Source: Buchananella sp. 14KM1171 (GTDB taxonomy: Bacteria > Actinomycetota > Actinomycetes > Actinomycetales > Actinomycetaceae). From it: 64,000 nucleotides of DNA. The translations under genes and the position numbers were made by a program. The notes under the pieces were generated by a model. That model saw only the letters and a program-made list of their open reading frames with translations, ran no database searches and was not told the origin of the DNA. Where the stretch lies: contig NZ_CP159981.1 of the NCBI RefSeq assembly GCF_041380365.1, positions 434,001 through 498,000 of the forward strand, written 5' to 3'. Of this stretch, positions 19,607 through 35,764 are shown piece after piece (position 1 is the first letter of the stretch; each line of letters starts with the position of its first letter).

Positions 19607-19632
19607 GGGCCCGGCTCTGCCACAATTGAGCA

Positions 19633-20075: not shown

Positions 20076-20792
20076 ATGAAGTCCATGCGGGAGAGGCAGA
20101 GCGACGGTGGTCGGCGCGGGAGCGCTAGCACCGTCGGGTGGACGCCCCGCTTTGGGTTAATCGCTTTAGCGGTTGGAATTACGCTGGGGATTGCGGCCTG
20201 CGGCTCAACCGGCCAGGATGCGCCGGAGCCGGTGGACCCGAATAAGAGCGCGCTGGCGATTTCCCCGCAACCGGTGCCCTCCGCGAGCGCTGCGGCGAGC
20301 AGTGAGTCACAGGCCGCGCCCGGCGGGGACACCTACCAAGCGGTGGACCTCGAGGCGCCCCGACTGAGCGACGTCGCCGCCGAACCTAGCGTCGATGGCG
20401 CCGAGGCCTACGCCTACTTCCTTTTCCACGGCTGGGCCTACGCGATTCAGTCCAACGACGTGGACTGGTGGCGCGCCAACGCGCAGGGCTCTGCCCCCTG
20501 GCTGGAGAGCATCGCGCACGTGCTGGTGGAGGGCGCCCACGCCGGGACGGCGGCTAAGGTGGCCGACTTCCAGCCCTACACGGTTCGGCGCGGCACCAAC
20601 CCGGACAACCCGGACGAACACGTCGTCGTACTCCAGGCACAGGTGGACACGATTTACGAGGTGTCAAGGGACGGTGCGCAAGCTGTTGACACGCCAGCTA
20701 TGCTGACGGAGTTCGCAGTGATTCTCTCTTACACTGACGGCAGGTGGCTCATTAAGGACGCCGAAATGATGCAAGCCCAGGGGCAGCAGTGA
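20076..20792 (+). CDS. DUF6318-family lipoprotein (distant copy)
   Basis: A 238-residue lipoprotein: a charged start, a hydrophobic signal (FGLIALAVGITLGIA) and the lipobox cysteine in IAACGS. An unstructured Ser/Ala/Pro stretch follows, then the DUF6318 core DGAEAYAYFLFHGWAYAI with DVDWWRAN. The C-terminal half resembles an SnoaL/NTF2-like lipoprotein module by eye only. Function unknown. It is the first of five related lipoproteins in the window (others at 30629, 32480, 34027, 35030). Its stop overlaps the start of the PKD gene by 4 nt (GTGA). Confidence 0.78.
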   Translation: MKSMRERQSDGGRRGSASTVGWTPRFGLIALAVGITLGIAACGSTGQDAPEPVDPNKSALAISPQPVPSASAAASSESQAAPGGDTYQAVDLEAPRLSDVAAEPSVDGAEAYAYFLFHGWAYAIQSNDVDWWRANAQGSAPWLESIAHVLVEGAHAGTAAKVADFQPYTVRRGTNPDNPDEHVVVLQAQVDTIYEVSRDGAQAVDTPAMLTEFAVILSYTDGRWLIKDAEMMQAQGQQ

Positions 20793-21700
20793 TTCATTGG
20801 CTTATTGCACTATCGCTTGCGCTTTCCGCTCCCGTCGCAACGGGTAAGTATCACGGCGAGTCCGGCGGCAACAACGGCGAAGTCACCATTTCTTCCACGG
20901 ACATTTGGGCCGACCCCGCCCCGCCCCCGCCTCCGGTTTTCCAGCCGCCGGCGCCGCCGGCGCACCACGCACCGCAGCAGGCACCTCGCCCGGGGTCCGG
21001 CGGGCATTCGCGGGTGGAGCCGCCCAAGGCTCCCAGGCCGCCCGCCCAGCCGGCACCGAAGCCGGCTTGGACCCCCAAGCCGGAGCCCAAGCCAGAGGCG
21101 CCCAAGCCCGAGCACGAGGCGCCCAAGTCTTGCCCCAGCCCGAAGCCGACCAAGCCGCCGGCCTCCGGTGGCTCGTGCGGCTGCCCGAATGCCGCCGCGC
21201 CGCCGGCTGCGGCCCCGGGCACTCCCAGCCCTGCGGCCACTCCGGGCGTCTCCGTAACGGAGATGGCCACGGTGCGGATCACGCCGTCTGTCATCACGAT
21301 GTGGCCCTCATCCGGGGACGTGCTGATCAACCTGCGCACTCCGGTGATGACCAGCGGCAACCCGCAGATCCATTCCGTGATGCTGCGCGGGGAGCAGATC
21401 AACGTGCGCGCCACTCCGATCGAGTTCACCTGGGACTTCGGCGACGGCACCGAGTTCACCACCACCGACCCGGGCACTCCCTTCCCGAATGCCTCGATCT
21501 CGCACCAGTACCTGACGCGCTCCCCCAAGACCCGCATCACCCTGACGACCACCTGGAAGGCCGAGTTTCAGCACCCGGGGACCGGGGCGTGGCACCCGGT
21601 CAGTGGCACGGTGAAGACCACCAGCCACTCGCGCTGGTTTGCTCGCAAGATGGCCCAGGCGTTCCTGACCGACGAGGCCGAGCGGCTCCAGGGCCGCTAG
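20789..21700 (+). CDS. Secreted PKD-domain protein with proline-rich linker
   Basis: A 303-residue protein with a short N-terminal signal (WLIALSLALSAPVA), a Pro/Lys-rich linker (about 40-150), a Cys pair (SCPSP and SGGSCGCPN), and a C-terminal ~150-residue PKD-like domain with the family signature FTWDFGDGTEF and HQYLTRSPKTRITLTTTW. PKD folds commonly mediate extracellular protein or glycan contacts. It starts with GTG overlapping the DUF6318 stop, so the two proteins are probably made together. Relatives at 31309 and 33160 share the PKD end but have different N termini. Confidence 0.75.
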   Translation: MIHWLIALSLALSAPVATGKYHGESGGNNGEVTISSTDIWADPAPPPPPVFQPPAPPAHHAPQQAPRPGSGGHSRVEPPKAPRPPAQPAPKPAWTPKPEPKPEAPKPEHEAPKSCPSPKPTKPPASGGSCGCPNAAAPPAAAPGTPSPAATPGVSVTEMATVRITPSVITMWPSSGDVLINLRTPVMTSGNPQIHSVMLRGEQINVRATPIEFTWDFGDGTEFTTTDPGTPFPNASISHQYLTRSPKTRITLTTTWKAEFQHPGTGAWHPVSGTVKTTSHSRWFARKMAQAFLTDEAERLQGR

Positions 21701-21860
21701 CCTCCCGGGCCGCTCCGGGTAGCGCGTTGGCCCCCGGCTGGATGGCGCTCCCGACGGCGACTCTTCAACGCGCCATGCGCACGGGCGTAACGCGGCGCAA
21801 GGTCGGGGCCTTGGCCTTTCGGCCCGGCAAGCTGGTCTCACCCCAACTAGCCGTGCCCAA

Positions 21861-22052
21861 TCTCGACGTTTGTGGCTTCAACTAGACGAATGGCCCCCAA
21901 TCTCGACGTTTGCGGCCTCAACTAGACGAATCGCCCCCAATTTCGACGTTCGCGGCCTCAACTAGACGAATGGCCCCCAATCTCGACGTTTGCCGGGGCT
22001 CCATCGTCGAGTTGAACAGCCAAACGTCTAGTTGAAGACCCAAACGTCGAAA
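21861..22052. repeat. 40-bp direct repeat array with inverted end units
   Basis: Three in-phase 40-bp units (21861-21900, 21901-21940, 21941-21980) each contain CTCGACGTTTG (or a one-base variant) and CAACTAGACGAA. They are followed by a partial unit and then inverted copies (CGTCGAGTTGAAC, CAAACGTCTAGTTGAA, CAAACGTCGA) up to 22052. Alternate units differ by single bases. The core CAACTCGACGTTTG also builds the array at 28331. Confidence 0.85.
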
Positions 22053-22348: not shown

Positions 22349-24487
22349 ATGGTTGCGCTCGACATGACTCGACCTCGCATCTCTCACCGCTTGCCGCTCA
22401 CGGCACTCCTGAGCGCCCCGCTGCTGTGCGCCGGGCTTCTGCTGCCGCAGGCCGCCCTGGCCGCTCCGGCCGACCAGCCGGACGCCCCCGGCGTGGCCGA
22501 CGTTCCTCGCACCTCCGGCGAACAGACCGGCCACCTTTTGGACGACGAGGACCTGGGCGGCTCAGGCAACACCTCCGGCACCGAGTCCGGCACCGGCACG
22601 GGCGGAGACAACGGCACGGGCAGCGACACCGGCTCCACCTCGGGCAGCGATGAGGAGGAGTCCACCATCGGCCCGGACAAGCCCACCACTCCCCCGCCGG
22701 CGGCCCCGGACATCCCGGCGGGCGTGGAGACCGTGGACTCGGCGGAGCGCAAGGTCTGGCTGGGTGAGTTCAGCTCCAGCTTCGGCACGGTGCTGGCGCG
22801 CGGCGCGTGCGACGTGACGGGTGACGGCAAGCCGGACGTGATCAGCGGCAACCTGACGCGCTCGGAGTGGAAGTACGACCCGTACTACTGGGACTCCCCG
22901 AACAAGGGTTGGGTCAGCAACGTCACCGGCGCGGTGCAGATCGTCCCGGGCGGTACCCCGGGTGCGGCGCTGACTAAGGACAACTCGATCACGATCGTCG
23001 GCCCGCGAGACACGGGCGAGGAAGGCGTGGACGCCACGATCGGCCTGTCGGTGGCCTGCCTGGGTGACACGAACGGCGACGGGGTGGATGACCTGGCGGT
23101 CGGCTCGCACACGATGGGGCGCGCCTGGGTGCTTAACGGCGGCCCCGGCCTGGCGAGCGTGGACCTGTCCGCGCTCACCCCGGCGCAGGGCTTCACGGTG
23201 AAGCTGCCTGCGTTTGGTGCCCCGGCGGCGCACTTGGCGCCGGCTGGTGACGTGAACGGCGACGGCCTGGCTGACCTGGCCGTGGTGCACTCCAACCTGC
23301 GCCCGATTACGGGTGCGGCGAAGGACCAGGGCGTGGCTTTCGTGGTGGCGGGCGCTCGCGCCGGCCAGGATGTGGACCTGACTGACCCGCTGGCTGAGAA
23401 CGCCCGCGTGATCGCCCGCGTGGTGACGCCGCTGGATCACCTGGCCACCTCTTTCACGGCGGTGGGTGATGTGAACAAGGACGGCCGCACGGACTTCGTG
23501 CTGACGGACTACAGCCACTCCCGCCAGGAGAACTTTGTGCACGGCCGTGCTTGGCTGCTCACGGGCGTGAAGCCGGGCGCGCGGATCGACCTGGGCCAGG
23601 CTTTCGAGGGCGCGGTGATCGAGGCGGTTGGCACTACCTCGCTGCGCCTGGGCATCGGTAACTCGGTGGCGCCGGCCGGCGACGTGGACGGTGACGGCTT
23701 CGGTGACTTCGTGATCGGTTTCGACGGCGGCAACCTGATGAACGTGGGGCGCGGTGGCGTGGCGCTGGTGCACGGCAACGCCAGCGTGTCGGCGCAGGTG
23801 CGCATTTCCCCGGAGGGCCAGTTGGACGACGTTGCCTCCGCCCTGCGTGTGAATATCGTGCGCGGCGCGGCGGCCGGTGATGGCTTCGGTTACGCGGTGG
23901 ACGTGCTGCCGGGCGCGAAGGGCACGGGCCTGGTGGCCGTGGGTGCGCAGGGCGCCGAGGGCGGCAATGGCCGCAGCTACGTGTTCCCGCTGAGCGCGTT
24001 CAACGCCCCGGTGCGCGGGATCGCGGACCTGGGCGCGGAGGCGACGGTGTTGGAGTCCCCCGGCGCTAAGTCCCGCTCGGGCCGCAGCGTGGCCTTCGTG
24101 GGCTCGCTGCTGGGCGGCCCGACCCTGGCCGTGGGTGGCGATGGCGTGATCCACGACGACCTGGGCGGCGACGAGGGCTGGGCCCACGCGGCCCACGTGA
24201 TGGCCGTGAAGGTCAAGCAGCCGGCCCCGGCGCCCGACCCGCAGACGCCGGGCCAGTCGGGTGGCTCCGAGGGCGGGGCGACGCCTCAGCCCACGGTGAA
24301 GCCGACCGCGAAGCCGACCGCTCCCACCCCTGCCGCCACCCAGGCGGCCCCGGCCGCGCAGGCCAAGAAGGGCGGCAAGCAGCTGGCCAAGACCGGTCTG
24401 GGCGCCTCCCCGGCGCTGGCTGCGGCGCTGACTGCTGGCGGCTTGGCGCTGCTGGCGCTGCACCGCCGCAACCGGGTCGCCCGGTGA
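22349..24487 (+). CDS. Cell-wall-anchored FG-GAP/integrin-alpha-like repeat protein (LAKTG sorting signal)
   Basis: A 712-residue surface protein. The signal peptide (PLTALLSAPLLCAGLLLPQAALA) is followed by an acidic Gly/Ser/Thr-rich segment (about 50-125). A beta-propeller-like region then carries at least five calcium-binding DxxGDG/DxDGDG loops (DVTGDGKPD, DTNGDGVDD, DVNGDGLAD, DVNKDGRTD, DVDGDGFGD). A Pro/Thr-rich wall spanner, LAKTG near residue 679, a hydrophobic helix and an RRNRVAR tail are the sortase substrate pattern. FG-GAP proteins often act in adhesion. GAAGG abuts the ATG at 22349; a second ATG at 22364 is an alternative start. The iron-box-like dyad upstream suggests iron control. 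Confidence 0.85.
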   Translation: MVALDMTRPRISHRLPLTALLSAPLLCAGLLLPQAALAAPADQPDAPGVADVPRTSGEQTGHLLDDEDLGGSGNTSGTESGTGTGGDNGTGSDTGSTSGSDEEESTIGPDKPTTPPPAAPDIPAGVETVDSAERKVWLGEFSSSFGTVLARGACDVTGDGKPDVISGNLTRSEWKYDPYYWDSPNKGWVSNVTGAVQIVPGGTPGAALTKDNSITIVGPRDTGEEGVDATIGLSVACLGDTNGDGVDDLAVGSHTMGRAWVLNGGPGLASVDLSALTPAQGFTVKLPAFGAPAAHLAPAGDVNGDGLADLAVVHSNLRPITGAAKDQGVAFVVAGARAGQDVDLTDPLAENARVIARVVTPLDHLATSFTAVGDVNKDGRTDFVLTDYSHSRQENFVHGRAWLLTGVKPGARIDLGQAFEGAVIEAVGTTSLRLGIGNSVAPAGDVDGDGFGDFVIGFDGGNLMNVGRGGVALVHGNASVSAQVRISPEGQLDDVASALRVNIVRGAAAGDGFGYAVDVLPGAKGTGLVAVGAQGAEGGNGRSYVFPLSAFNAPVRGIADLGAEATVLESPGAKSRSGRSVAFVGSLLGGPTLAVGGDGVIHDDLGGDEGWAHAAHVMAVKVKQPAPAPDPQTPGQSGGSEGGATPQPTVKPTAKPTAPTPAATQAAPAAQAKKGGKQLAKTGLGASPALAAALTAGGLALLALHRRNRVAR

Positions 24488-28330: not shown

Positions 28331-29006
28331 CCCCACTCGACTTTTGCGCCTCAGCTCGACGTTCGCGGTCCCAACTCGACGTTCGCGGTCTCAACTCGAC
28401 GTTTGCCACCTCAACTCGACGTTCGGCACCCCAGCTCGACGTTCGCGGTCTCAACTCGACGTTCGCCACCTCAACTCGACGTTTACACCCCCCGAAACGT
28501 CTAAATTCACCTCCCAACGTCGAGATGAAGAACCAAACGTCGAGTCCCACGCCCAACCGTCAGCGCTCAGCCCCGCACCCCAGCCCCCAGACGAAGCCCC
28601 ACACCCACCCCAGCTCGACGTTCGCCACCTCAACTCGACGTTCGGCACCCCAGCTCGACGTTCGCGAGCTCAACTCGACGTTTGCCAGCTCAACTCGACG
28701 TTTGCACCCCCCGAAACGTCTAAATTCACCTCCCAACGTCGAGATGAAGAACCAAACGTCGAGTCCCACGCCCAACCGTCAGCGCTCAGCCCCGCACCCC
28801 AGCCCCCAGACGAAGCCCCACACCCACCCCAGCTCGACGTTCGCCACCTCAACTCGACGTTCGCCACCTCAACTCGACGTTCGCCACCTCAACTCGACGT
28901 TTACACCCCCCGAAACGTCTAAATTCACCTCCCAACGTCGAGATGAAGAACCAAACGTCGAGTCCCACGCCCAACCGTCAGCGCTCAGCCCCGCACCCCA
29001 GCCCCC
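28331..29006. repeat. 20-bp repeat array in three blocks (8 + 5 + 4 units)
   Basis: In-phase 20-bp units occur at 28331-28490 (8 units), 28610-28709 (5) and 28829-28908 (4). Each has a near-constant part (YCARCTCGACGTTYG) and a variable tail of about 5 nt. The blocks are separated by nearly identical 119-bp spacers (28491-28609, 28710-28828; a third partial copy runs to about 29006). The spacers themselves contain degenerate CGACGTT-type words in both orientations. The region lies between dnaE and the nuclease-like gene and encodes no credible protein. Confidence 0.92.
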
Positions 29007-30202: not shown

Positions 30203-30628
30203 TGACCTTGTTTATGCCGCTTTTCCCCTTCGTGCCTGTGCTCGTGCGCGCGGTGCGCACCGGCTGTTTTCCACAGCCCACCGCGCCGCTTGAGGGGTAC
30301 ATGTATTGCCCAGTGGTGCTAGAAGCGTTCTCCCGGCTGGGTTTTCCTGTCGGCGTGTGGAAGTGGTGGCGTCGTTGCTTGCCAGTGATGGCCGACGTTC
30401 CACCCGTCCCGTCGCTGGGGATAGTCCCTCCGCGTGGAGGCCCAGAACGTGGTCGACGTTCCCCCCGCACCTTCTCTAAACCGACCCTCGGCGTGTTGGC
30501 CTGGGTGGGGCACTCGTCCCTTGTGCTCCGCCTGGTCTTCCTGCTGGCCGACCGTGGAGATCGCGAGGGCGGCGGGCGTTTTCCACAAGGGGTAGATACG
30601 GCAACGAGCCCTGGTCTAGGTTCGGTTT
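30203..30628. other. Intergenic region upstream of DUF6318/PKD pair 1
   Basis: No gene is supported. It carries one unit of the CCTCCGCGTGGAGGCCCAGA element (30426-30446), CGACGTT words at 30393 and 30454, and the promoter of pair 1. The right ~200 bp is closely similar to 32279-32479 upstream of pair 2, so the promoter was duplicated with the genes. Confidence 0.6.
30617..30622 (+). promoter_or_regulatory. -10 box of DUF6318/PKD pair 1
   Basis: TAGGTT lies 6 nt before the ATG at 30629. The surrounding promoter sequence is nearly identical to that of pair 2. Confidence 0.55.
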
Positions 30629-31312
30629 ATGGAGATCAACCCGACCCAGCAACCGGCAGAGGCCGCCACGGGCCCGGCCCGGCGGGTGGCACCACGGCTT
30701 CTCCTTGCCACCCTGGTGGCCCTTCCTCTCACCCTGGCCGCCTGCTCGACCCAAACCGAGCCGCCTCCAGCCCCGCTGCCCATGCCCACGGTCAACACCG
30801 CCACACCGTCCGCCGCTGCCTCAGAGTCCGCAGCCGAGGTCAGCCCGGCCCCCACGACGCCGCAGCCACAGGAGATAGAACCACCAGTCCCCTCCGACGT
30901 CGCCCAAGAAAACAGTTTCGACGGCGCCGAGGCCTACGCCTACTTCCTCTTCCAAGCCTGGTGGTACCTCATCAACACCCACGACATCGACTGGTGGGAC
31001 ACCAACATCCCCGACTGCGAATGGAAAACCCAGAAACGGGACGAGGCCGCTGATGCCCTCCAAGCAGATGTAATTGACCATCTTCCGCCACTTCTTCCAG
31101 AGACCACCGAGAGAGCTGTCAACGAGTTAAACGCATCCGAGTACCAAATCAGGATGCGGAGCCCGTTTGGTCCGCTTGAGCGCACCTTGCCTGACGGTGA
31201 GCTAGAAGTCCTCGAAGACAAAGGGACACTAGAGCTTACGGCCCACTTGCTCTATGACTCCGAGAGTTGGCGTTTAGTCAGAGCTTCCATCGTAAGGGTG
31301 GGAGAACGATGA
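30629..31312 (+). CDS. DUF6318-family lipoprotein, copy 1
   Basis: A 227-residue lipoprotein: signal LLLATLVALPLTLAAC with lipobox cysteine, a Pro/Ser/Ala-rich linker, then the core PPVPSDVAQENSFDGAEAYAYFLF and WWYLINTHDIDWWDTNIP. After the core (about residue 129) the sequence is unlike the other copies. The last nucleotides overlap the PKD gene start (ATGA). The first ~390 nt are nearly identical to copy 2. It is probably anchored to the outer face of the membrane; function unknown. Confidence 0.82.
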   Translation: MEINPTQQPAEAATGPARRVAPRLLLATLVALPLTLAACSTQTEPPPAPLPMPTVNTATPSAAASESAAEVSPAPTTPQPQEIEPPVPSDVAQENSFDGAEAYAYFLFQAWWYLINTHDIDWWDTNIPDCEWKTQKRDEAADALQADVIDHLPPLLPETTERAVNELNASEYQIRMRSPFGPLERTLPDGELEVLEDKGTLELTAHLLYDSESWRLVRASIVRVGER

Positions 31313-32070
31313 AGCGCTTCATTGGACTGGCAACTATGCTCCCCGGCATCATGTTGCCCTTAGACTGGATCGACGAGGTCTCCGGCCAGCAAGAATCAGA
31401 CGGTATTTCGATTGAATGGAAGATCGAAGACGTATCAACCTCGGGGGCAACCGATAATCCGATCGTGGCGCTTCCTGTGCCGTCTGCGATTCCTACGACT
31501 CCGCATTACTTGTGTGAGTTTGAGGACCCGGCCGAGTGCATGTGGGACTACGGGGAAAAACGCCGCTTGCCCCGCCCGACCCCCAGCCAGGCACCCGAGG
31601 TGGACTGGACCAGAGCGGTGACCATCCGGGAGGTCGAGTCCATCAACTTCGCCCCACCCGCAGTGATCATGTGGCCCAACACTGGCGACGTACTCATCAA
31701 CCTACCCACCCCCGTGATGACCGACGCGGGTGAGCGCATCTACACCCTGCAGTTCACCACCGCCGACATCCAAGTACGCGCCACCCCGTTCGAGTACACC
31801 TGGGACTTTGGCGACGGCACGATCGAGACCGTGGACCACCCCGGCCTGCCCGACCCCCAGGCCACCTACAAACACCAATACCTCACCCGCGCCGCCAAGA
31901 ACCGCATCACCCTGACCACCACCTGGAGTGCTGAGTTCCTCCACCCCCGCACCGGGGCCTGGATCCCCATCGAAGGCAGCGTGCAAACCCTCAGCTACTC
32001 GCGCTGGTTCACCCAGAAAATGGCCGTGCCCTTCCTGACCGACGAAGCCGAAAAACTAGACGGCCACTAA
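31309..32070 (+). CDS. Secreted PKD-domain protein, pair 1
   Basis: A 253-residue protein, translationally coupled to the lipoprotein. A short hydrophobic N terminus (FIGLATMLPGIMLPL) may be a signal peptide. A pair-specific N-terminal stretch is followed by the conserved PHYLCEFEDPAECMWDYGEK (two Cys) and a PKD-like domain with YTWDFGDGTIETV and KHQYLTRAAKNRITLTTTW. The end (SRWFTQKMAVPFLTDEAEKL) is shared with pair 2 and with the protein at 20789. Role unknown; an extracellular partner of the lipoprotein is inferred from coupling. Confidence 0.78.
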   Translation: MKRFIGLATMLPGIMLPLDWIDEVSGQQESDGISIEWKIEDVSTSGATDNPIVALPVPSAIPTTPHYLCEFEDPAECMWDYGEKRRLPRPTPSQAPEVDWTRAVTIREVESINFAPPAVIMWPNTGDVLINLPTPVMTDAGERIYTLQFTTADIQVRATPFEYTWDFGDGTIETVDHPGLPDPQATYKHQYLTRAAKNRITLTTTWSAEFLHPRTGAWIPIEGSVQTLSYSRWFTQKMAVPFLTDEAEKLDGH

Positions 32071-32479
32071 ACCACCCCTGCTAGTCGTACCCGGCCCACT
32101 TCTACTCCCGTGGCATGGATGACTTCCTCACCCAGCCCTGCCCCTGGGCCGGTGCCTCCGCGTGGACCCCTGAGCATGAACGACGCCGCACCCACCCCCT
32201 GCTCTGAACAGGCCCCTCCGCGTGGAGGCCCAGACACCTGGAACTGGCTTACCGGGATACCCTGCACAACCGCCCCCTCCGCGTGGAAGCCCAGAGCACG
32301 AACGACGTTCCGCCCGCACCCTCTCTAAACCGGCCCTCGGCGTGTTGGCGTTGGGGTGGGGCGCTCGTCCCTTGTTCTTCACCTGGTCCTTCAGGTGACC
32401 GGCGGTGGAGATCGTGAGGGCGGTGGGTGTTTTCCACAAGTGGTAGATACGGCAACGAGCCCTGGTCTAGGTTCGATTC
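32071..32479. repeat. About 60-bp imperfect repeats and promoter between pairs 1 and 2
   Basis: A unit starting CCTCCGCGTGGA recurs at 32155, 32215 and 32276, about 60 bp apart; the unit at 30426 upstream of pair 1 is the fourth. Each is followed by GAACGACG or a related word. The unit core (CCTCCGCGTGGAGG) is an imperfect palindrome. No gene is supported here. A -10-like TAGGTT at 32468-32473 serves copy 2. Confidence 0.7.
32468..32473 (+). promoter_or_regulatory. -10 box of DUF6318/PKD pair 2
   Basis: TAGGTT is 6 nt before the ATG at 32480, as in pair 1. Confidence 0.55.
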
Positions 32480-33163
32480 ATGGAGATCAACCCGACCCAG
32501 CAACCGGCAATGGCCGCCACGGGCCCGGCCCGGCGGGCAGCACGCAGGTTGTTCCTTGCCACCCTGGTGGCCCTTCCCCTCACCCTGGCCGCCTGCTCTA
32601 CCCAAACCAAGCCACCGCCAGCCCCGCTGCCCATGCCCAGCGTCAACACCGCCACACCGTCCGCCGCTGCCTCAGAGTCCGCAGCCGAGGCCAGCCCGAC
32701 CCCCACGACGCCGCAGCCACAGGAGATAGAACCACCAGTCCCCTCCGACGTCGCCCAAGAAAACAGTTTCGACGGCGCCGAGGCCTACGCCTACTTCCTC
32801 TTCCAAGCCTGGTGGTACCTCATCAACACCCACGACATCGACTGGTGGGACACCAACATCCCCGAATGTGGCTGGAAGAGCGAGATGCGCGCCAAAGCAG
32901 CTAATCAGATAGATGAGGCAATCACAGACGAGCTAGCCCAGTTCACGCCGTACGTCTTCGATTCTCGAGTCAACCCAGACGACCCGAACGAGTTCATGGT
33001 GACGATGCGGGCTGACATCGCCGAGATTTACTCGATTGACGCTCAAGGAACGCGGACGGTGTCAGTAGAGGCTGAGACCCACGAACTCGTTGCCCGGCTC
33101 CTGTTTGACCAAGGCGAATGGCGCACAGTAGCAGTCGTAAACCACGAAGCGGGACACGAATGA
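32480..33163 (+). CDS. DUF6318-family lipoprotein, copy 2
   Basis: A 227-residue lipoprotein with the same start, linker and core as copy 1 (signal LFLATLVALPLTLAAC; SFDGAEAYAYFLFQAWWYL). It diverges sharply after the codons for TNIPE at 32865. Its C-terminal half (NPDDPNEFMVTMRADIAEIYSID) resembles those of copies 3 and 4 more than copy 1. It overlaps the PKD start by 4 nt. Confidence 0.82.
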   Translation: MEINPTQQPAMAATGPARRAARRLFLATLVALPLTLAACSTQTKPPPAPLPMPSVNTATPSAAASESAAEASPTPTTPQPQEIEPPVPSDVAQENSFDGAEAYAYFLFQAWWYLINTHDIDWWDTNIPECGWKSEMRAKAANQIDEAITDELAQFTPYVFDSRVNPDDPNEFMVTMRADIAEIYSIDAQGTRTVSVEAETHELVARLLFDQGEWRTVAVVNHEAGHE

Positions 33164-33933
33164 TGAAGGCGAGCCTCCCGATCTTGCTCACTTTCATGCT
33201 CCCGATTTCGCTGGGAGTTGACCAGTGGGACGGAACAGCAGACTCCGAGGGCGTTTCTGTCGAGGTTTCAACAGACTGGGGCGTGAAACCAGATCTCCCT
33301 GGGGATTTTCCAGGTTCTGCCCCGATCGCGGCTTTGCCTGTGCCGTCTGTGGTTCCTACTAGGCCGCATTACTTGTGTGAGTTTGAGGACCCGACCGAGT
33401 GCATGTGGGACTACGGGGAAAAACGCCGCCTGCCCCGCCCGTCCCCCAGCCAGGCACCCGAGGTGGACTGGACCAGAGCGGTGACCATCCGGGAGGTCGA
33501 GTCCATCAACTTCGCCCCACCCGCAGTGATCATGTGGCCCAACACCGGCGACGTACTCATAAACCTACCCACCCCGGTAATGACCGACGCGGGTGAGCGG
33601 ATCTACACCCTGCAGTTCACCACCGCCGACATCCAAGTACGCGCCACCCCGTTCGAATACACCTGGGACTTTGGCGACGGCACGGTAGAGACCGTGGACC
33701 ACCCAGGCCTGCCCGACCCCCAGGCCACCTACAAACACCAATACCTCACCCGGGCAGCCAAGAACCGCATCACCCTGACCACTTCCTGGCGCGCCGAGTT
33801 CCTCCACCCCCGCACCGGGGCCTGGATCCCCATCGAAGGCAGCGTGCAAACCGTCAGCTACTCGCGCTGGTTCACCCAGAAAATGGCCGTGCCCTTCCTG
33901 ACCGACGAAGCCGAAAAACTAGCCGGCCACTAA
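33160..33933 (+). CDS. Secreted PKD-domain protein, pair 2
   Basis: A 257-residue protein with start ATGATG at 33160 and a hydrophobic signal (SLPILLTFMLPISLG). A unique N-terminal ~55 residues precede a block almost identical to pair 1 at DNA level from about 33322 to the stop: CEFEDPTECMW, YTWDFGDGTVETV and SRWFTQKMAVPFL. The organisation and coupling are the same as pair 1. Confidence 0.78.
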   Translation: MMKASLPILLTFMLPISLGVDQWDGTADSEGVSVEVSTDWGVKPDLPGDFPGSAPIAALPVPSVVPTRPHYLCEFEDPTECMWDYGEKRRLPRPSPSQAPEVDWTRAVTIREVESINFAPPAVIMWPNTGDVLINLPTPVMTDAGERIYTLQFTTADIQVRATPFEYTWDFGDGTVETVDHPGLPDPQATYKHQYLTRAAKNRITLTTSWRAEFLHPRTGAWIPIEGSVQTVSYSRWFTQKMAVPFLTDEAEKLAGH

Positions 33934-34026
33934 CCCCACCCCCACCCCTTGTTGTTCTCGCCCCCTGCCGTGGTGAAGCTCTAGTCGCCCACAGCGATGG
34001 CGGGGCGTTGATGGAGGCAGGAAATC

Positions 34027-34731
34027 ATGCAGGCCAACCAAACCAGTACCCAAGTCTCGGCGTGCTCGATCGCGCGCAGGTGGGTGGCACGCGGGCTTTT
34101 CCTTGCCACCCTGGTGCCCCTTCCCCTCACCCTGGCCGCGTGCTCGACCCAAACCGACCATCCCCCAGCCCCGCCGCCCATGCCCAGCGTGAACACCACG
34201 GCGCCGGCGAGCAGCCAGCCCTCCGACCAATCCACCCAGGCAACACCGGTCCCCAGCGGCCCTAGCCAGACACCGCTCTTGCCGGAACAGATACAGGCGC
34301 CCGTCCCCTCGGACGTAGCGCTGGAGGACAGCGCCGACGGTGCCGAGGCCTACGCCTACTTCCTCTTCCAAGCCTGGTGGTACCTCATCAACACCCACGA
34401 CATCCACTGGTGGGACACCAACATCCCCAACTGCGAATGGAAGACGAAGATACGCGACTCTGCGCTATACCTAATCGAAAGCGAGACTCTCAGCGAGACA
34501 GCTGCGATTACCCCACAAGTGATCAGCCGAAAAGTAAACCTTGAGAACACAAGCGAGTTTGAAATAACCCTACACGCCGACGTTAGCGACATATACAGCG
34601 TGACTAAGGACGGCACCAGGAGTGTAGCATCTCCGGGGGAGACATACGAATTAATCGCACATCTCCTGCACAACGGCGATTCATGGGACGCAATAGCCAT
34701 TGTGACCCGAGGGGCAGATGATCCCAAGTGA
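34027..34731 (+). CDS. DUF6318-family lipoprotein, copy 3
   Basis: A 234-residue lipoprotein: signal LFLATLVPLPLTLAAC, a longer Ser/Thr/Pro linker, core DGAEAYAYFLFQAWWYLINTHDIHWW, and a divergent C terminus (EFEITLHADVSDIYSVTKDG). GGAGG lies about 9 nt before the ATG, unlike copies 1 and 2. Its second half is visibly more AT-rich than the first. It overlaps the start of the truncated PKD partner by 4 nt (GTGA). Confidence 0.8.
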   Translation: MQANQTSTQVSACSIARRWVARGLFLATLVPLPLTLAACSTQTDHPPAPPPMPSVNTTAPASSQPSDQSTQATPVPSGPSQTPLLPEQIQAPVPSDVALEDSADGAEAYAYFLFQAWWYLINTHDIHWWDTNIPNCEWKTKIRDSALYLIESETLSETAAITPQVISRKVNLENTSEFEITLHADVSDIYSVTKDGTRSVASPGETYELIAHLLHNGDSWDAIAIVTRGADDPK

Positions 34732-34979
34732 TTACCCTAGCCCTCGCGTTCATACTAGCGCTTTTGCCTCATGTCGACAATTCAGACATTTGGAAAGTCG
34801 CGACAACAGACAATGGGGTTGAAGTATCACCCTCCCCCGTTTGGCAGGCTATCCCTAGCATTATAGACAATCCATCAAACGACACCCAGATCGCGGCACT
34901 TCCGGTGCCGTCTGCAGTTCCGTCTACTCCGCATCATTTGTGTGAGTTTGAGAACCTGAATGGTTGTTTATGGGAATAA
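34728..34979 (+). pseudogene. Truncated PKD-protein partner of copy 3
   Basis: An 83-residue frame (GTG start) with a hydrophobic signal (LALAFILALLPHV), then IAALPVPSAVPSTPHHLCEFENLNGCLWE and a stop. It aligns with pair 1 and 2 proteins up to the Cys-x-Trp motif and ends just where their PKD domain linker begins. The PKD domain has been lost and copy 4 follows almost at once. It could still make a short secreted peptide with the Cys pair. Confidence 0.65.
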
Positions 34980-35029
34980 AGCAAGAAACGGCAGTTGCCA
35001 CTGTCGCACGCCAAAGTGAGGTTAGATTC

Positions 35030-35764
35030 ATGCACCACAAACTCACTTCCACCAGGACAAGCCCGCTGGCGCCAACGGGCGGGTCTAGCCACCGCAAGCC
35101 TTCCCCCGGGACATTCCTGACACTCTTGGCTGCGATCCCGCTCCTGCTGGCCGCGTGTTCAGCCGACCCCAACTCAGAGCCCGCTTCCCCGTCCACTACC
35201 CAAGCCACGGCGCTGACCAACGAACAGGCGCCTTCAGCGATGAAGGCAAGCCCCACTCCATCCCAAGCGCCATCCTCGTCTAGCCCAACGGCTGCAACCT
35301 CGCCGCACCCCTCAACAACGATCCAGCCGCCCGTCCCCTCGGACGTAGCGCTGGAAAACAGTTTCGACGGTGCCGAGGCCTACGCCCACTTCCTCTTCCA
35401 AGCCTGGTGGTACCTCATCAACACCCACAACATCGAATGGTGGGATGAAAACTTCCCCGATTGCGAGTGGAAACAGCAAATGCGGGACACGGCCGTAGAT
35501 AAAATCGAAAAGGGCGTGACAAACGAGCTATCTGCATTCACTCCCCGCATAGTTGATTCACGAATGAATCCCGATAACCACAGCGAGTTTGTGGTGACTC
35601 TCCAAGCGGACCTCGGCGCTATTTTCACGTTAGATCGCGATGGGAATAAGACGACTTCAGTACCTCCCGAGACCCACCAGTTTGCTGTTCGCTTACTCTT
35701 CAGTGGCGACGCATGGGACGTAGTCGCACTCGTCAATAAGGAAGCGCCGGGCCAGACTCGCTGA
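35030..35764 (+). CDS. DUF6318-family lipoprotein, copy 4 (no partner gene)
   Basis: A 244-residue lipoprotein when started at ATG 35030 (an upstream in-frame ATG at 34964 overlaps the previous frame). Signal LTLLAAIPLLLAAC, a Ser/Thr/Pro linker, core SFDGAEAYAHFLFQAWWYL with NIEWWDENFP, and C-terminal EFVVTLQADLGAIFTLDRDG. No PKD gene follows; the next gene is valS. It is the most diverged of the four tandem copies. Confidence 0.78.
   Translation: MHHKLTSTRTSPLAPTGGSSHRKPSPGTFLTLLAAIPLLLAACSADPNSEPASPSTTQATALTNEQAPSAMKASPTPSQAPSSSSPTAATSPHPSTTIQPPVPSDVALENSFDGAEAYAHFLFQAWWYLINTHNIEWWDENFPDCEWKQQMRDTAVDKIEKGVTNELSAFTPRIVDSRMNPDNHSEFVVTLQADLGAIFTLDRDGNKTTSVPPETHQFAVRLLFSGDAWDVVALVNKEAPGQTR

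Follow-up and report, generated by a model that had tools for sequence, protein, structure and literature searches.

The 64,000-nucleotide (nt) stretch of the Buchananella sp. 14KM1171 genome analysed here (the window; contig NZ_CP159981.1, positions 434,001 to 498,000) carries gene pairs in which a lipoprotein gene of the DUF6318 family overlaps a gene for a secreted partner with a PKD-like domain. Copies of the pair have conserved DNA arms around a variable middle, which encodes the end of the lipoprotein and the start of its partner. Among Actinomyces and related bacteria, these middle segments appear to be swapped as one cassette between genome sites and between species, and the paired proteins resemble lock-and-key types that can be exchanged at the cell surface.

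The window holds five lipoprotein open reading frames (ORFs), four in tandem and one at 20076, as had been read from the sequence. The DUF6318 gathering score (PF19843, 23.8 bits) is exceeded by three, at 26.3, 28.3 and 34.7 bits; those at 34027 and 20076 score under it (19.7 and 16.6 bits) and align with the other three. The 4-nt overlap with the next gene (ATGA or GTGA) is present in four of the five, the gene at 35030 being partnerless. Three partners had been described as PKD proteins with the motif TWDFGDGT. All three have the motif, but the domain call does not stand by Pfam gathering scores, since the best values against PF00801 and PF18911 are 21.7 (cut-off 23.5) and 20.3 and 17.7 bits (cut-off 27). 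We therefore call the window partners PKD-like; the partner of a related locus, L122, clears the cut-offs with 27.9 and 29.0 bits.

The sequence-only reading had placed near-identical arms around a divergent middle of about 450 nt in pairs 1 and 2 (Table 1), and the alignment bears this out: the middles are 0.43 identical over about 455 nt, and most 50-nt windows of the arms are 0.80–1.00 identical, versus 0.20–0.34 for the unrelated flanks. Measured in 20-nt windows, the borders fall at 31019/32870 (end of the left arm) and 31474/33337 (start of the right arm), close to those given earlier (31014/32865 and 31459/33321). As proposed, the middle covers both variable parts, encoding the lipoprotein from about residue 131 to its end and the first 55–59 or so residues of the partner. 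Further middles do occur elsewhere in the genome: a DNA search with pair 1 over the whole 2.36-Mb genome found two more complete pairs with the same arms and unrelated middles. The genome thus has five pair copies at three regions, four of them with alike arms. Among these four, all six comparisons place the borders within about 20 nt of each other, with middle identities of 0.34–0.43. In the 85-kb and 1.86-Mb copies, the common DNA begins about 610 nt before the lipoprotein start.

To look for mosaicism, we scored the sites that divide the four copies two by two along the arms. In the left arm, all 61 informative sites join pair 1 (W1) with pair 2 (W2); between 31477 and 31800, 3/3 join pair 1 with the 85-kb copy; and between 31801 and 32070, 9/9 join it with the 1.86-Mb copy. 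Because three conflicting groupings follow one another along the arms, recombination between distant sites is the plain explanation, and the arms in this genome are mosaics. Ordinary tandem duplication with divergence in place, which would fit the two pairs and one remnant standing in tandem in the window, is almost certainly wrong: it leaves unexplained these groupings, the sharp borders common to copies at distant sites and the different middles found at one site in close species.

The last point comes from a cross-species comparison of loci by flanks, arms and middle (blastn; sampled genomes are labelled G### and loci L###). The collections hold one genome per species, and comparisons are made between species. 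Four locus pairs occupy the same site with unrelated middles: G025 L087 and G024 L112 (flanks 93 and 91%, arms 94 and 93%), G025 L086 and G024 L111 (93 and 93%, 94 and 95%), G022 L140 and G050 L091 (94 and 96%, 89 and 95%), and G018 L137 and G040 L143 (92 and 93%, 84 and 88%). In none of the four did blastn find a match in the middle. Conversely, related middles occur where no common flank was found, in G018 L138 and G040 L143 (400 nt at 91%, arms 88%) and in G050 L090 and G040 L142 (402 nt at 80%, arms 92 and 95%). As a contrary case, G024 L110 and G025 L088 kept the middle at its site (398 nt at 100%). One site common to five genomes (L138, L142, L113, L140 and L091) holds at least three types in its four intact pairs (LC4, LC2, LC2 and LC7), and its broken fifth pair resembles yet another type. 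Mosaicism of the arms inside one genome, unlike middles at one site in close species and kindred middles at separate sites together give good support, by sequence comparison, to the earlier proposal that cassettes flanked by conserved arms are exchanged through recombination.

The same architecture extends across the family. A partner-profile search matched 126 of 213 Actinomycetaceae genomes, 53 of them with two or more matches (hand count). Loci were taken from 40 genomes including this one, a non-random sample mostly with at least two matches, and the 103 loci yielded 111 partner ORFs and 126 lipoprotein-profile ORFs, giving 105 pairs, 89 with the exact 4-nt overlap. Within genomes (121 comparisons, 31 genomes), median DNA identity was high in the arms (5', 0.81; 3', 0.94) and lower in the middle (lipoprotein end, 0.56; partner start, 0.39); these medians keep 11 rows whose 3' arm falls below 0.5 through a truncated or misassigned ORF end (G014, G029 L104_2317, G052 L154_6731, G169 L065_8701) and three rows with L113 in which the 5' value is meaningless. 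Rows that reflect overlapping windows of tandem neighbours rather than paralogy were dropped from other comparisons (those with truncated pair 3 (W|17721), and the rows of G141, G265, G408 L198 and G162 L206). Both arms reached at least 0.8 in 52 comparisons (21 genomes); both middle parts lay below 0.6 in 32 of these (18 genomes), the partner start did so in 46, and in 5 both middle parts reached at least 0.9, an entire cassette having been copied to another site. Only 2 within-genome comparisons were mixed, with one middle part at 0.8 or more and the other below 0.65. Intact cassette copies are seen in G152 L061/L063/L064, G031 L098/L099 and G039 L119/L120. In G152, these three dispersed pairs are identical in all four segments, and a fourth pair has an identical 3' arm and another middle.

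How old are the middles? We made 35 comparisons between recognisably related middles, 26 of them within the Actinomyces oris (A. oris) group with common loci and so not independent. The lipoprotein end exceeds the 3' arm in synonymous divergence (dS) in 34/35 comparisons and the 5' arm in 33/35 (medians 1.44, 0.21 and 0.40, respectively), and 7 comparisons are saturated. The median ratio of nonsynonymous to synonymous divergence (dN/dS) is 0.12 in the lipoprotein end, 0.40 in the partner start, and 0.22 and 0.36 in the arms; the positive selection expected on the middle was not found in these comparisons. The G+C content of the middle is below that of the arms in all 102 pairs tested (0.55 and 0.54 versus 0.68 and 0.65). 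We read related middles as old alleles under purifying constraint, flanked by arms that recombination appears to have refreshed, rather than as fast-evolving sequence. Neutral concerted evolution, in which gene conversion evens out the arms while a middle that ceased converting drifts without function, would also yield young arms and old middles by dS, and gene conversion by itself would give alike arms. We nevertheless judge it improbable, because the middles themselves move between sites and species, entire cassettes are sometimes copied intact, dN/dS is low and the layout recurs in three families.

Sequence types match across the gene border. In a test of 19 usable pairs from eight A. oris-group genomes, 7 types of lipoprotein end and 9 of partner start were distinguished. 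Each partner type goes with a single lipoprotein type, and two of the lipoprotein types correspond to two partner types apiece. Agreement between the two typings (adjusted Rand index) was 0.96, versus a mean of 0.15 and a maximum of 0.91 in within-genome shuffles, none of 5000 of which reached the observed value; under three other threshold settings it was 0.86–0.93, again with 0/5000. Across genomes (104 pairs), the similarities of lipoprotein ends and partner starts correlate at 0.52, versus 0.42 when shuffled within genomes (0/2000), and the lipoprotein end shows no such excess with the 3' arm (1071/2000 shuffles at or above the observed value). Comparison of the pairs thus shows co-inheritance across the gene border.

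We also predicted structures for pair 2. The mature lipoprotein domain, modelled from 16 sequences, is predicted with high confidence (predicted local distance difference test score 95) as helices followed by a seven-strand sheet. The arm encodes the first helices, and the variable part encodes the third long helix and the entire sheet. Helices followed by a curved sheet, as in solved NTF2-like proteins, are seen here by prediction only. The best solved match is the intermembrane-space domain of ARC6 (5had; Z 12.0 over 128 residues, root-mean-square deviation 2.7); PARC6 entries solved with PDV1 match at Z 11.2 and 10.4, and many NTF2-like structures at Z 8–9. The lipoprotein domain is therefore predicted to be NTF2-like, nearest to ARC6/PARC6. 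In the partner model, residues 1–110 have low confidence and the C-terminal PKD-like domain is mostly high, so that the N-terminus is predicted to be disordered. By eye, many mature partner N-termini close in a strand-like pattern, for example GxSVTVTG.

What might the paired variable parts do? Lipobox, signal peptides, 4-nt coupling and predicted structures make a two-part cell-surface module plausible. Each pair would be a translationally coupled two-gene unit whose products are an NTF2-like lipoprotein anchored in the membrane and a PKD-like protein that is secreted. We infer that the lipoprotein, through its variable C-terminal domain, binds the variable N-terminal peptide of its cognate partner and tethers that partner at the cell surface. 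The specificity parts would then stand back to back at the gene junction, at the end of gene 1 and the start of gene 2; because these are the touching ends of overlapping genes, one short DNA segment would carry a matched pair, and the partner signal peptide, located between the specificity parts, would travel with it. Homologous recombination in the arms would move this segment between copies, sites and species while keeping the arms alike, and selection for diversity would preserve old matched types. The near identity maintained in the arms makes it unlikely that each copy has a task of its own; difference itself seems to be selected. Immune, phage or kin recognition would each suffice as the selective force, and the data do not choose among them. 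We give this account, of a receptor domain tethering its partner's peptide on a matched, recombining cassette under selection for diversity, an even chance of being right. It could extend to a multi-locus surface recognition code, in which each cell shows at least two receptor lipoproteins capturing only own-type secreted ligands, its own or its neighbours', and, with cassettes common to Actinomyces species groups, one short exchange rewrites surface identity; we find this extension rather doubtful.

Several results weigh against cognate tethering. Plain linkage of adjacent DNA alone would also yield type matching. The lipoprotein end also correlates with the 5' arm above shuffles (0.853; shuffled mean 0.846). 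When nearest matches were tested, the partner start (50/92) did no better than the 5' arm control (53/92; chance 33.9). Some loci combine similar lipoprotein ends with dissimilar partner starts, such as G038 L115/L117 (0.94 and 0.50) and G024 L111/L112 (0.81 and 0.52), though the signal peptide accounts for part of the difference. On the structural side, VirB8, TraM and Tim44 domains also score about Z 9, the partner model has no PDB match at E <= 0.001, and the caution given with VIA-align warns that a common fold shows no function; the fold common to the lipoprotein and ARC6/PARC6 is likewise no proof that the lipoprotein binds a peptide. ARC6 and PARC6 bind PDV2 and PDV1 in the intermembrane space (PMC5877594). 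These plastid division receptors thus offer the closest solved folds, PARC6 having been solved together with PDV1, but they are plant organelle proteins with about 10% sequence identity to the lipoprotein. ARC6 and PARC6 are not known to be hypervariable.

Could the lipoprotein vary as a target rather than as a receptor? If its exposed domain were met by antibodies or phages, exchange would make new types and the partner N-terminus would merely be carried along. The exchange of middles between sites and species, the several different middles per genome and the lower G+C of the middle all fit this, yet it does not explain why the segment extends into the mature N-terminus of the partner, related middles are under purifying selection, and the copies look simultaneously expressible, which would make for poor evasion; it is possible, though on the unlikely side. 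Nor did we find silent copies. The sequence-only reading had likened the middle to a switchable segment as in antigenic variation, but searches of this genome with DNA and with both proteins (profile searches) turned up, besides the complete pairs, truncated pair 3, the lone lipoprotein and a weak match of 18.6 bits at C1:778137; that match aside, they found no cassette outside gene pairs. Classical silent-copy antigenic variation, in which promoterless partial copies feed a single expressed one, is therefore unsupported. The pairs resemble pilE/pilS or vls in that recombination alters part of a surface protein, and differ in that the copies are complete gene pairs with their own starts.

A toxin-immunity or exclusion pair, with the secreted partner acting on neighbouring cells and the lipoprotein giving protection from partners of its own type, would explain partnerless lipoproteins beside pairs, such as that at 35030, and a lipoprotein gene upstream of 105 of the 111 partner ORFs (at least one of the six others, L163, is at a contig end). 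It would also fit an orphan lipoprotein end in G029 that is 72% identical to a paired one in G014. As in polymorphic toxin-immunity loci, the variable parts of the two genes adjoin and one member also occurs as orphan copies. Polymorphic toxins, however, vary at the C-terminus, whereas here the N-terminus of the secreted protein varies and the PKD-like part at its C-terminus is conserved. No toxin Pfam domain was found in the pair proteins tested, and NCBIfam gave 0 matches for six proteins (E <= 0.01) and PADLOC 0 for four (E <= 0.1). We therefore consider this explanation very unlikely.

By analogy, the system is somewhat like agr specificity groups and swapped recognition domains, and is a member of neither. 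Staphylococcal agr has a variable block across gene junctions, conserved parts on either side and co-inherited specificity types; agrB to agrC is termed the hypervariable agr region (PMC6834553). In the pairs, both products look extracellular and cassettes are common to several sites, whereas agr is peptide quorum sensing. Several copies occur per genome, as against, typically, one agr locus. The only Pfam families found in the tested pair proteins are DUF6318 and PKD; an agr system would encode a processed peptide, an AgrB-type protease and an AgrC/AgrA sensor together. With hsdS target-recognition domains, the pairs have in common conserved arms, swapped variable segments and a kept frame; hsdS serves intracellular DNA recognition, whereas the segment here extends over two genes and takes in each half of a presumed protein pair. 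A literature search that left most subscription papers out of reach returned no paper mentioning DUF6318 and, within the same reach, nothing relevant on Actinomyces with PKD domains, lipoproteins, antigenic variation or gene conversion. For DUF6318, a domain of unknown function, the results supply a partner, a mechanism of evolution and a role that can be tested. If cognate pairing is true, the pairs are orthogonal receptor-peptide combinations, shuffled by nature, on the surfaces of bacteria; if phages or antibodies drive the diversity, the loci mark what those agents see. A. oris, an oral species of dental plaque, a setting of interest for cell-cell recognition, carries such pairs.

Table 1. 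Pair genes, arms and cassettes in the window, with the further complete copies in the genome.
Feature	Position	Strand	Remark
Pair 1 left conserved arm	30430..31019	+	takes in about 200 nt upstream of lipoprotein start
Pair 1 lipoprotein (DUF6318)	30629..31312	+	residues 1-130 in left arm, about 131-227 in variable middle
Pair 1 variable middle (cassette)	31020..31473	+	
Pair 1 secreted partner	31309..32070	+	first ~55 residues in middle, PKD-like part in right arm
Pair 1 right conserved arm	31474..32078	+	homology with 85-kb copy stops 8 nt past partner stop
Pair 2 lipoprotein (DUF6318)	32480..33163	+	structure predicted
Pair 2 variable middle (cassette)	32871..33336	+	
Pair 2 secreted partner	33160..33933	+	structure predicted
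Pair 3 lipoprotein (DUF6318-like)	34027..34731	+	under gathering score
Pair 3 truncated partner	34728..34979	+	83 aa; variable N-terminus and linker, without PKD part
Solo lipoprotein (DUF6318)	35030..35764	+	without partner
Diverged-pair lipoprotein (DUF6318-like)	20076..20789	+	
Diverged-pair secreted partner	20789..21700	+	
Further complete pairs, same genome	C1:85328-87036 and C1:1861642-1863353	-	found by DNA search with pair 1

The ORF list starts the genes at 20076 and 35030 at 19626 and 34964, respectively; the internal starts used here are those of the sequence-only reading. The region 34027–35764, a truncated pair followed by a solo lipoprotein, resembles a decaying pair or a deletion between two pairs. 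In A. oris CCUG 34288 (L131 / L113), an in-frame stop breaks the lipoprotein gene and the partner ORF is intact; G050 L089 is an intact relative. Solo lipoproteins numbered 21 among the sampled loci, a count that is not firm because some are fragments or false profile matches (L108|7199, L153|4362, L174|3152, L120, L065|6420).

Of 297 Actinomycetales genomes sampled, 172 contain DUF6318 above its cut-off; most of these have one or two matches, and the highest number is ten. The paired layout also occurs in two families outside Actinomycetaceae (G213 and G408). Tandem runs of two to four DUF6318 lipoproteins with no recognised partner were seen outside Actinomycetaceae (G265 L202-L203, G408 L198). 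A scan of the genome-contig collection with the pair-1 lipoprotein returned no relative, and one with the partner alignment returned 16 loci, among which L132, L133 and L135 (Chitinophaga/Saprospiraceae) were set aside because they look like unrelated PKD-repeat proteins, and L136 as a contig-end piece.

Arrays of a 20-nt unit (CAACTCGACGTTYGNNNCCT-like) lie at 28355–28954 and 21834–21993 of the window and also genome-wide. Allowing up to 3 mismatches, a genome-wide search matched the unit 110 times forward and 97 times in reverse, against 0 for the reversed control, and units in both orientations are found near one another. These arrays were rejected as recombination sites of the pairs, the matches lying mostly far from them. 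The C-terminal partner residues LTD(D/E)AE...GH, at the extreme protein end (for example window 33895–33930), are kept across Actinomycetaceae. The ORF directly after the lipoprotein at 35030 presumably encodes valyl-tRNA synthetase. Beside the diverged pair, window 22349–24487 encodes a 712-aa secreted protein whose C-terminus (LAKTG, a membrane stretch and a basic tail) we take to be sortase-signal-like.

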